Shown piece after piece: positions 43,004 through 46,174 of a stretch of 64,000 nt of DNA. The notes beneath the pieces are model-generated. The model saw only the letters and a list, made by a program, of their open reading frames with translations. It was not told the DNA's origin and made no database searches. This stretch comes from Agromyces mariniharenae (GTDB lineage Bacteria > Actinomycetota > Actinomycetes > Actinomycetales > Microbacteriaceae): positions 1,906,891 to 1,970,890 of the forward strand of contig NZ_VSSB01000001.1 in the NCBI RefSeq assembly GCF_008122505.1, given 5' to 3'. The position numbers and the translations under genes are program-made. Each line of letters starts with the position of its first letter. Position 1 is the first letter of the stretch.

Positions 43004-43012
43004 ATGTCAAGC

Positions 43013-43624
43013 ATGACGATCCAGGATGTCGCGCCGGCCGCTCGCATGAAGGCCGCCGACCGTCGGGAGCTGATCCTCGCGGCGGCCACGGCCGTGTTCG
43101 GCGCCAAGACCTACGTGGGCACCACGACCGACGAGGTCGCCCGCGCCGCCGGCGTGAGCCAGCCCTACGTCGTGCGGCTGTTCGGCACCAAGGAGAAGCT
43201 GTTCATCGCGGTCATCGAGCGCGCCTACGCGCGCCTCATCGACGAGTTCCGCCGTGCGCTCCCGGGCGACGTCGAGGGTCGGGCGGGCCGGATGGGCAGC
43301 GCGTACACGGGCCTGCTCGCCGAGCGCGGCATGCTCCCGGTCATCGCCAACTCGACGGCGCTCGGGGGCGAGCCCGAGATCGGGCGAGTGGCCCGCGCCG
43401 GCTTCAGCGACATCTGGCGCTTCATTCGCGACGAGGCGGGCTTCTCGGCGGAGGAGACCCGCGAGTTCATGGCGACCGGCATGCTCATCAACGCCATCGT
43501 CGGACTGCGGCTCACCGGCGACTACGGCAACGAGGTCTCGGCCACCGAAGTGCTCGAGGCGTGCTTCCCCGACGCCGTCGAGAAGGTCCGTGCGTTCCTC
43601 CCCGAGATCGGCGAGCCCTGGTGA
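43013..43624 (+). CDS. TetR-family regulator of the adjacent MFS
   Basis: 203 residues. N-terminal HTH: ADRRELILAAATAVFGAKTYVGTTTDEVARAAGVSQPYVVRLFGTKEKLFIAVIERA. The C-terminal ligand domain is all-helical (about 60-200) and ends in VEKVRAFLPEIGEPW. The ATG at 43013 is preferred over 43004 because TAACAT (43000-43005) then lies seven bases upstream. Divergence from the MFS over a large dyad indicates a drug-responsive repressor pair. Confidence 0.88.
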   Translation: MTIQDVAPAARMKAADRRELILAAATAVFGAKTYVGTTTDEVARAAGVSQPYVVRLFGTKEKLFIAVIERAYARLIDEFRRALPGDVEGRAGRMGSAYTGLLAERGMLPVIANSTALGGEPEIGRVARAGFSDIWRFIRDEAGFSAEETREFMATGMLINAIVGLRLTGDYGNEVSATEVLEACFPDAVEKVRAFLPEIGEPW

Positions 43625-43634
43625 GCGGCGGCGA

Positions 43635-44327
43635 CTAGCGCGTCGACCGCAGCAGCGAGATTCCGTACGCGGTGATCCACGCGAACCCGAGCGCGACGCC
43701 CACGAACAGCCGCACGCTCATCCCGGGCCCGAACGGCAGGCAGAGCAGCAGGCACGCCACGCCGATCACGCGCGACCAGATCGCCGCCGCGCGGTGCCCC
43801 TCCCACGTGAGCCGTCGCGCGACGACCCACGTGACGGCGACGAGCGCGAGGAACGCGAGCGGTGCGGCGAACGCGTGCACCGTCCCGTGGAACGTCCACT
43901 CGGTCGGATACCCGTCGGGCGTGCCGATCGGGAACCCGAGGGCCGGGTCGGCGGTGAAGGCGCCCCCGAGTACGAGGCCGACGCCGTAGAGCGCGAACAG
44001 CACGGGCGCCCAGATCCGGCCGGGGCCGTCGCCGAGGCTCCGGCGGGTGCCCACGGCGAACGCGAGCATGAGCACGCCCGCGACGACGAAGTTCGCGATC
44101 TGGATCCAGCCGAGCTCGCCGAGCGAGAGCAGGCTGAGCGGATGCCGCGTCAGGTCGAAGCCCTCGCGCGTGAGCACCTGCACGAGGCCCACGGCGACGA
44201 AGAGCGGGCCCGCGACCACGCCCGCCGTGACGAGGGCGCGGGTCGCGGGATCGCCGGCGTGCGCCGGCCGGCGGCCCGCGGTACTCGGGGCGACTCGGGT
44301 GGTCGCGGTGTCGGTGCGGATGTCCAT
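43635..44327 (-). CDS. DUF998 membrane protein under ECF42-type promoter
   Basis: 230 residues. A polar N-tail of about 30 residues precedes about six helices with the DUF998 pattern ALVTAGVVAGPLFVAVGLVQVLTREGFDLTRHPLSLLSLGELGWIQIANFVVAGVLMLAFAVG and DGYPTEWTFHGTVHAFAAPLAFLAL. The ATG has GGAAGGAA upstream. The promoter read on the minus strand is TGTCGA-N17-CGAC, identical in form to that of the YCII gene across the gap. It is therefore probably a member of the same sigma-factor regulon. Function of DUF998 is unknown. Confidence 0.85.
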   Translation of the reverse strand: MDIRTDTATTRVAPSTAGRRPAHAGDPATRALVTAGVVAGPLFVAVGLVQVLTREGFDLTRHPLSLLSLGELGWIQIANFVVAGVLMLAFAVGTRRSLGDGPGRIWAPVLFALYGVGLVLGGAFTADPALGFPIGTPDGYPTEWTFHGTVHAFAAPLAFLALVAVTWVVARRLTWEGHRAAAIWSRVIGVACLLLCLPFGPGMSVRLFVGVALGFAWITAYGISLLRSTR

Positions 44328-44378
44328 GGCGTCGTTCCTTCCGGTCGTGACCCGGTCGATCGGGTCGTTCACCATGGC

Positions 44379-44457
44379 GTCGCGGCGCGGCATCCGTTCT
44401 CGACATCGATCTCGGAATTCTTCGGACGCATGTCGAGAACGGCGTCGAGCCGCCGAC
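44379..44457. promoter_or_regulatory. Divergent pair of ECF42-type promoters
   Basis: Plus strand: TGTCGA at 44431-44436, 17 bases, CGAC at 44454-44457, towards the YCII and sigma-factor genes. Minus strand: TGTCGA at 44405-44400, 17 bases, CGAC at 44382-44379, towards the DUF998 gene. The two -35 boxes lie in an 11-bp inverted repeat, GTTCTCGACAT (44396-44406) and ATGTCGAGAAC (44430-44440). The form TGTCGA then CG(A/T)C is the signature reported for ECF42 sigma factors in Streptomyces. Confidence 0.82.
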
Positions 44458-44507: not shown

Positions 44508-44861
44508 ATGCGCTACATGTGCCTGATGAAGTCCAGCGAGTCGAACGGCGAGACGCCCCCAGCCGTCTACGAGGCGATGGCGGAGTACGACCGCTGGGGC
44601 CGGGCGAACGGCGTGCTGATCGACAGCCAGGGGCTGCTGCCCAGCGACGCCGGCGCGATCGTCTCGCTCGTCGACGGGAACATCAAGGCCGTCGACGGTC
44701 CGTTCACCGAGGCGAAGGAGCTCGTCGGCGGCTACGCGGTCATCGAGGTCCGCTCGTACGACGAGGCGCTCGAGCTCGGCCGCCGGCTGATGCAGATCCA
44801 CAAGGACAACTGGCCCGGCTTCGAGGGCAGCGTCGAGATCCGGCAGATCGCCGAGTTCTGA
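44508..44861 (+). CDS. YCII/DGPF-domain protein
   Basis: 117 residues. MRYMCLMKSSE, then YEAMAEYDRWGRANGVLIDSQGLLPS, VDGPFTEAKELVGGYAVIEVRSYDEALELGRRLM and VEIRQIAEF show the DGPF motif (here VDGPF) that names this family. DGPF genes are the conserved partners and targets of ECF42 sigma factors. The ATG has AGGAGG at the best spacing in this region. An ECF42 gene follows 38 bases later and an ECF42-type promoter precedes, so this is the classic autoregulated pair. Confidence 0.92.
   Translation: MRYMCLMKSSESNGETPPAVYEAMAEYDRWGRANGVLIDSQGLLPSDAGAIVSLVDGNIKAVDGPFTEAKELVGGYAVIEVRSYDEALELGRRLMQIHKDNWPGFEGSVEIRQIAEF

Positions 44862-44899: not shown

Positions 44900-46170
<1,271 letters not shown>

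Positions 46171-46174
<4 letters not shown>

Follow-up and report, generated by a model that had tools for sequence, protein, structure and literature searches.

The window, the whole stretch of 64,000 nucleotides that was analysed (G000:C1:1906891-1970890, in a genome of 4.08 Mb), encodes a DUF998 membrane protein divergently from an operon consisting of a YCII/DGPF-domain protein gene and, 38 bp downstream of it, an ECF42-type sigma factor gene (Table 1). ECF42 sigma factors are described as widely distributed and carry a C-terminal extension of approximately 200 residues that is rich in TPR repeats. The gene identities given in the preliminary description agree with Pfam, as the membrane protein matches PF06197 (E 5e-35, 121 bits against a cut-off of 30), the YCII protein matches PF03795, and the sigma factor matches PF04542, PF08281, and PF20239 (E 3e-37), all above cut-off. 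PF20239, which we take to be the marker of ECF42, accompanies a C-terminal extension of approximately 255 residues; no TPR family was detected in the window's sigma factor at E ≤ 0.001, and one relative (L170) has weak TPR matches below the cut-off. The families recognised by Pfam among the genes adjoining the operon are TetR, DUF998, YCII, and GNAT, none of which is an anti-sigma family, in line with the lack of an anti-sigma that the preliminary description gave for ECF42 factors in general. The DUF998 start codon (ATG 44327) is backed by relatives; an alternative in-frame ATG at 44375, which lies approximately at the expected transcription start and is not kept in relatives, was rejected. 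The genome encodes five sigma factors with PF20239 and has eight YCII matches, and the locus is thus one of five ECF42-like systems. In another ECF42 operon of the same genome (G000:C1:1101567-1103399), two YCII matches share a single open frame, and the promoter reads TGTCGATCC-N14-CGTC.

The gap between DUF998 and YCII, counted from ATG 44327 to the YCII start at 44508, is 180 bp long and contains TGTCGA-N17-CGAC once on each strand, at the sites and with the exact N17 spacing previously proposed. The -35 boxes are indeed located in an inverted repeat, although this repeat is a perfect 13 bp instead of the 11 bp first described. Dinucleotide shuffling of the 180-bp gap gave a perfect repeat of at least 13 bp once in 1000 shuffles and the twin motif once in 20000. 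TGTCGA and CG(A/T)C are reportedly recognised by ECF42 in Streptomyces. This signature is present on both strands of the gap, but in its plain form it is not specific, because the suggested search for TGTCGA-N16-18-CGWC returned 341 sites across the 4.08 Mb genome and 11 in the window, where 4.45 were expected, and by itself it is weak evidence. With the exact N17 spacing there are three sites in the window, two of which are the gap promoters. A longer form common to both strands, TGTCGAGAA-N14-CGWC, is rare, with three sites in the genome: both gap promoters and one site upstream of another YCII-ECF42 operon. Across 16 Agromyces genomes this form occurs at 44 sites, 30 of them in the DUF998–YCII gap (the DUF998-side site of G314 is one base off and outside the 30 counted), compared to a single site for the reversed-pattern control in the same genomes.

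Table 1. Genes and putative control elements at the DUF998–YCII gap, in positions of the window.
Feature	Position	Strand	Remarks
TetR gene flanking DUF998	43004-43624
DUF998 membrane protein gene, 230 aa	43635-44327	-	Start ATG 44327, stop 43635-43637; PF06197
DUF998-side promoter (putative)	44405 down to 44379	-	TGTCGAGAACGGATGCCGCGCCGCGAC; -35 TGTCGA 44405-44400, N17, -10 CGAC 44382-44379
Inverted repeat, left arm	44394-44406	.	CCGTTCTCGACAT; contains minus-strand -35
Linker separating the two -35 boxes	44406-44430	.	25 bp; end bases belong to repeat arms
Inverted repeat, right arm	44430-44442	.	ATGTCGAGAACGG; contains plus-strand -35
YCII-sigma promoter (putative)	44431-44457	+	TGTCGAGAACGGCGTCGAGCCGCCGAC; -35 TGTCGA 44431-44436, N17, -10 CGAC 44454-44457
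YCII/DGPF-domain protein gene, 117 aa	44508-44861	+	PF03795 E 4e-13
ECF42-type sigma factor gene, 424 aa	44900-46174	+	GTG start; sigma2, sigma4, C-terminal extension

A search of 60 Agromyces genomes gave a DUF998 match in 31 and an ortholog of the window's sigma factor (at least 69% identity, group A of the sigma tree) in 16. An intact DUF998 gene is divergent from the ortholog in 15 of these 16 genomes, and all 15 keep both promoters with exact N17 spacing, including the minus-strand motif on whose conservation the preliminary description had staked its reading. The linker between the -35 boxes ranges from 25 to 43 bp in the same 15 genomes, and mean column identity is 1.00 for both -35 boxes, 0.97 and 0.95 for the -10 boxes, and 0.60 for the linker. 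On either strand, conservation continues beyond the -10 box, with CGACG...GTGA in the majority of rows. In the sixteenth genome, G308, DUF998 is fragmented and the DUF998-side promoter is gone, with the sigma-side promoter intact. The linker of L045 (genome G142) holds a long, near-perfect palindrome, ATCCGGAGATTCTCCGGAT, and partial versions are found in other genomes. A further 14 Agromyces ECF42 loci, namely the top-scoring ones among those that yielded a locus, and thus a subset of all, each have one sigma-strand match; a second, minus-strand promoter was found at none of the 14, and at 13 a TGTCGAT...TTCGAC site is clearly upstream of YCII.

The linkage of DUF998 with ECF42 extends to other genera. 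A scan of public genome contigs identified 295 DUF998 relatives, the closest named ones being from Agromyces. Of the best 80, which were analysed, 34 have DUF998 beside an ECF42 gene (E < 1e-20, no more than 4 kb away). Seven linked loci are from Agromyces, with promoter regions identical to seven of the 15 above (not double-counted), and the 27 from outside Agromyces come from Streptosporangium, Nonomuraea, Microtetraspora, Planomonospora, Microbispora, Sphaerisporangium, Actinomadura, Thermomonospora, Streptomyces, Micromonospora, Rhizocola, Terrabacter, Pseudonocardia, and a Propionibacteriales bin. The divergent form is present in Streptomyces gardneri and S. narbonensis, which are close relatives of the model S. 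venezuelae. For the remaining 46 of the 80 relatives, the 4 kb around DUF998 contain no ECF42 gene, and only four of them carry TGTCG[AG]-N17-CG[AT][CG] upstream. On a quick tree of DUF998, linkage to ECF42 needs 12 changes by parsimony, at least five of which are forced on well supported branches. In two Ignavibacteriales bins (L169 and L173), DUF998 adjoins YCII genes with no ECF42 match, and the neighbours, by reading of the open frames, are PhnB/VOC-like, RibD-C-like, and MATE-like genes; DUF998 and YCII may therefore cluster outside Actinobacteria too.

Published accounts of ECF42 describe a C-terminal extension, a YCII neighbour, no anti-sigma, and small regulons, and the passages on ECF42 considered here make no mention of DUF998 (PMC8999054, PMC6180224, PMC8103513). 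As far as these descriptions extend, the known factors Sven_0747, Sven_4377, and Sven_7131 of Streptomyces venezuelae, ECF-10 of P. putida, and RpoE10 of S. meliloti have in common with the window sigma2 and sigma4 followed by a long C-terminal extension, a YCII gene directly upstream, a neighbourhood without an anti-sigma gene, and TGTCG-N17-CG promoters; the window differs in having a divergent second putative promoter that faces a DUF998 gene. Three ECF42-type sites reported for S. meliloti read TGTCGG-N17-CGTC (spacing measured here), and two of the three have mapped starts at RpoE10-induced operons (PMC6180224). The other overlaps its mapped start, and its operon, YCII-rpoE10, gave no response to RpoE10; autoregulation of ECF42 is therefore not universal (PMC6180224). 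The RpoE10 regulon is described as very small, with six genes up on overexpression in separate transcription units with TGTCGG-N17-CGTC (PMC6180224). Separate units that each have a TGTCG-type N17 site resemble the arrangement in the window, although the reported RpoE10 targets are glyoxalase-like and ligand-binding proteins with no DUF998 among them.

The gap of the window is very likely a bidirectional ECF42-type control region from which one ECF42 holoenzyme would read both transcription units, and since one sigma factor would read both promoters, DUF998 would be the dedicated partner of that sigma factor. Polymerase with the ECF42 sigma factor of 44900-46174, or with a paralog of the same -35 preference, would use both sites, such that a rightward start at 44431-44457 would yield the YCII protein and more sigma factor and a leftward start at 44379-44405 would yield DUF998. 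The comparative evidence supports the membership of DUF998 in the ECF42 regulon, as first proposed, and DUF998 very probably belongs to the small regulon of this sigma factor, since in relatives the promoters are retained, lost, or altered in step with the genes. The sequence comparisons thus give good independent support to an ECF42 system in which DUF998 would be a dedicated partner under shared control. Weighing against this reading are the look-alike promoter of one paralog, the unresponsive YCII-rpoE10 operon of S. meliloti, the 46 DUF998 relatives with no ECF42 neighbour, and the partly built-in likeness of the strands at the twin loci described below.

The DUF998 protein is probably a membrane output of this system, and a role as a sensor or feedback element seems rather less likely. 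A structure predicted from 43 sequences has six long helices (mean pLDDT 94.3), in which the conserved polar residues R54, D58, H62, S65, Q76, N79, D127, and H151 are located in or beside loops 1 and 3, with R96, beside loop 2, as the exception. Mean loop charge is -2.3 for loop 3 and +1.2 for loop 2, and by the positive-inside rule loops 1 and 3 would therefore be outside, so that most of the conserved polar residues in the model probably share one, outer face. Searches of solved structures with DUF998 gave nothing convincing. A structural clustering in Nature 2023 is reported to group DUF998 with Frag1-like six-helix bundles (PMC10584675), and DUF998, with six long helices in the model, may resemble Frag1/DRAM/Sfk1-like six-helix membrane proteins. 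One DUF998 clone is also reported as selected in an ester hydrolase screen (PMC6302743). Because of the outer polar face, the Frag1-like grouping, and the ester hydrolase clone, an outward-facing enzyme or binding protein is plausible from the model.

Alternatively, DUF998 could be a sensor or anti-sigma-like partner that provides the signal input, with the shared promoter forming a feedback loop, which we consider unlikely. This possibility gains from the absence of an anti-sigma family match by Pfam among the genes adjoining the operon, from DUF998 being the sole recurring membrane protein, from the clustering of its conserved polar residues mostly on one predicted face, and from a published account in which no partner is yet assigned to the ECF42 C-terminal extension (PMC8999054). 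However, the protein has no cytoplasmic domain, as its N-terminal tail, of approximately 26 residues, is poorly conserved and the remaining inner loops of the prediction are short; moreover, most known ECF42 loci are described without DUF998, and the twin promoter is missing from all 14 of the other Agromyces ECF42 loci. That DUF998 might be the membrane half of ECF42 signalling, binding or acting on an extracytoplasmic compound through a polar site probably outside the cell and reporting to the TPR/YCII module, is similarly doubtful; in that case, twin promoters that evolve with the -35-reading helix of the sigma factor would hold the circuit together across Actinobacteria.

The control of DUF998 by the adjacent sigma factor, as opposed to a paralog, can be approached through the promoter types. 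Divergent loci of type E (15 loci in Streptosporangiales and Streptomyces) have a different twin promoter, TTCCCTGTCACAT, in which TTCCC is followed by CGAC at 16-17 bp, in a repeat that was first picked out by eye. Type C (one bin) has TGTCGA-N17-TGAC and type D (one Nonomuraea) has [TC]GTCGA-N17-CGAG, in each case on both strands, and the codirectional types F and G have TGTCG[AGT]-N17-CG[ATC]N before DUF998 in 10 of 10 loci. An A-rich element, mostly AAAAAATCTTG-like, was observed by eye upstream of the TGTCG -35 box in codirectional DUF998 operons (L174, L180, L191, L183, L203, L211, L213, L231, and L232) and may be an UP-like element. For 36 twin loci of five types, agreement between the two strands averages 15.2 of 17 compared positions inside a locus, against 7.7 between types, a likeness that is partly built in because the locus-collecting patterns were applied alike to both strands. 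Under one of these search patterns, however, each strand was free to have TGTCGA or TGTCAA with any of several -10 forms, independently of the other, and no mixed locus appeared. None of 10000 shuffled pairings reached the observed mean, and when strands are paired by type, the true pairing is the best of 120. Loci of one type resemble themselves no more than their neighbours (15.2 for both), and the concerted signal therefore lies between types, which number only five. The sigma tree resolves types A, B, E, F, and G each as one clade, and the sigma4 recognition helix has an SRAK core in types A-D, [FITV]RAK in types F and G, and A-x-AK, without the arginine, in type E, whose -35 box is the most different among the types.

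The promoters could be real and DUF998 nevertheless be read by one or more other ECF42 paralogs, such that physical proximity alone would connect it to the adjacent sigma factor. There are five ECF42 paralogs in the genome, one with a look-alike promoter (L001); the paralog at 2377642 combines the promoter TGTCGAGAAC...CGAC with the helix motif QRISRAK, near the QRVSRAK of the window's sigma factor; which paralog reads the sites is therefore something we infer. Against this reading, which seems improbable, the promoters of both strands change with the type of sigma factor that they adjoin, TGTCGAT rather than TGTCGAGAA is found at YCII in other ECF42 loci of Agromyces, and the DUF998-ECF42 linkage recurs in several genera. 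It is very improbable that the repeat is a palindromic operator, for example for the TetR of 43004-43624, with an incidental likeness to promoters. In favour of an operator, the 13-bp repeat is perfect, the TetR gene flanks DUF998 in the window, and the long TTCCCTGTCACAT arms of type E, separated by 8 bp at 13 of the 15 loci, suit a dimer site, so that an operator is more conceivable in type E. In Agromyces group A, however, the arm-to-arm distance varies by 18 bp, whereas each strand keeps N17 between arm and -10 box, a pattern that fits two promoters and is the reverse of what a single dimer site requires. Moreover, of 15 relatives searched, only five (G308 included) have a TetR homolog next to DUF998, the arms match the known ECF42 -35 box, and none of four TetR-neighboured DUF998 genes examined carries the motif.

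The conserved, putatively co-regulated, and repeatedly re-formed DUF998-YCII-ECF42 module would provide a concrete partner for both ECF42 and DUF998. The five matched promoter types, together with the sigma4 helix differences, would offer a natural data set on the co-change of a sigma factor and its regulon, pairing one ECF sigma factor with all promoters of a very small regulon.

Other DUF998 genes of Agromyces are found in different settings. The motif is absent upstream of 20 of 22 unlinked Agromyces DUF998 genes and present upstream of two. Another DUF998 group (G300, G306, G311, G342, and G348; loci L127-L130 and L132) is divergent from a TetR-type-looking gene, with a GTGTAGTATTACAC-like repeat and no ECF42 motif in the gap, and is possibly a separately regulated DUF998. 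Genomes G310 and G326 have TGTCGATCC-N14-CGAC just upstream of DUF998 and no ECF42 gene within approximately 2.5 kb. A second system is encoded by G331, G317, G341, and G280, in which DUF998, YCII, and a different ECF42 gene follow one another on the same strand and are preceded, before DUF998, by divergent twin promoters of the form TGTCAA-N17-CGAG on both strands. At L149-L152 and L207, the other putative target of the twin promoter, opposite DUF998, is the gene of a small LVGTW-type protein, for which the Nonomuraea relative (L207) has a DUF1579 match below the cut-off.
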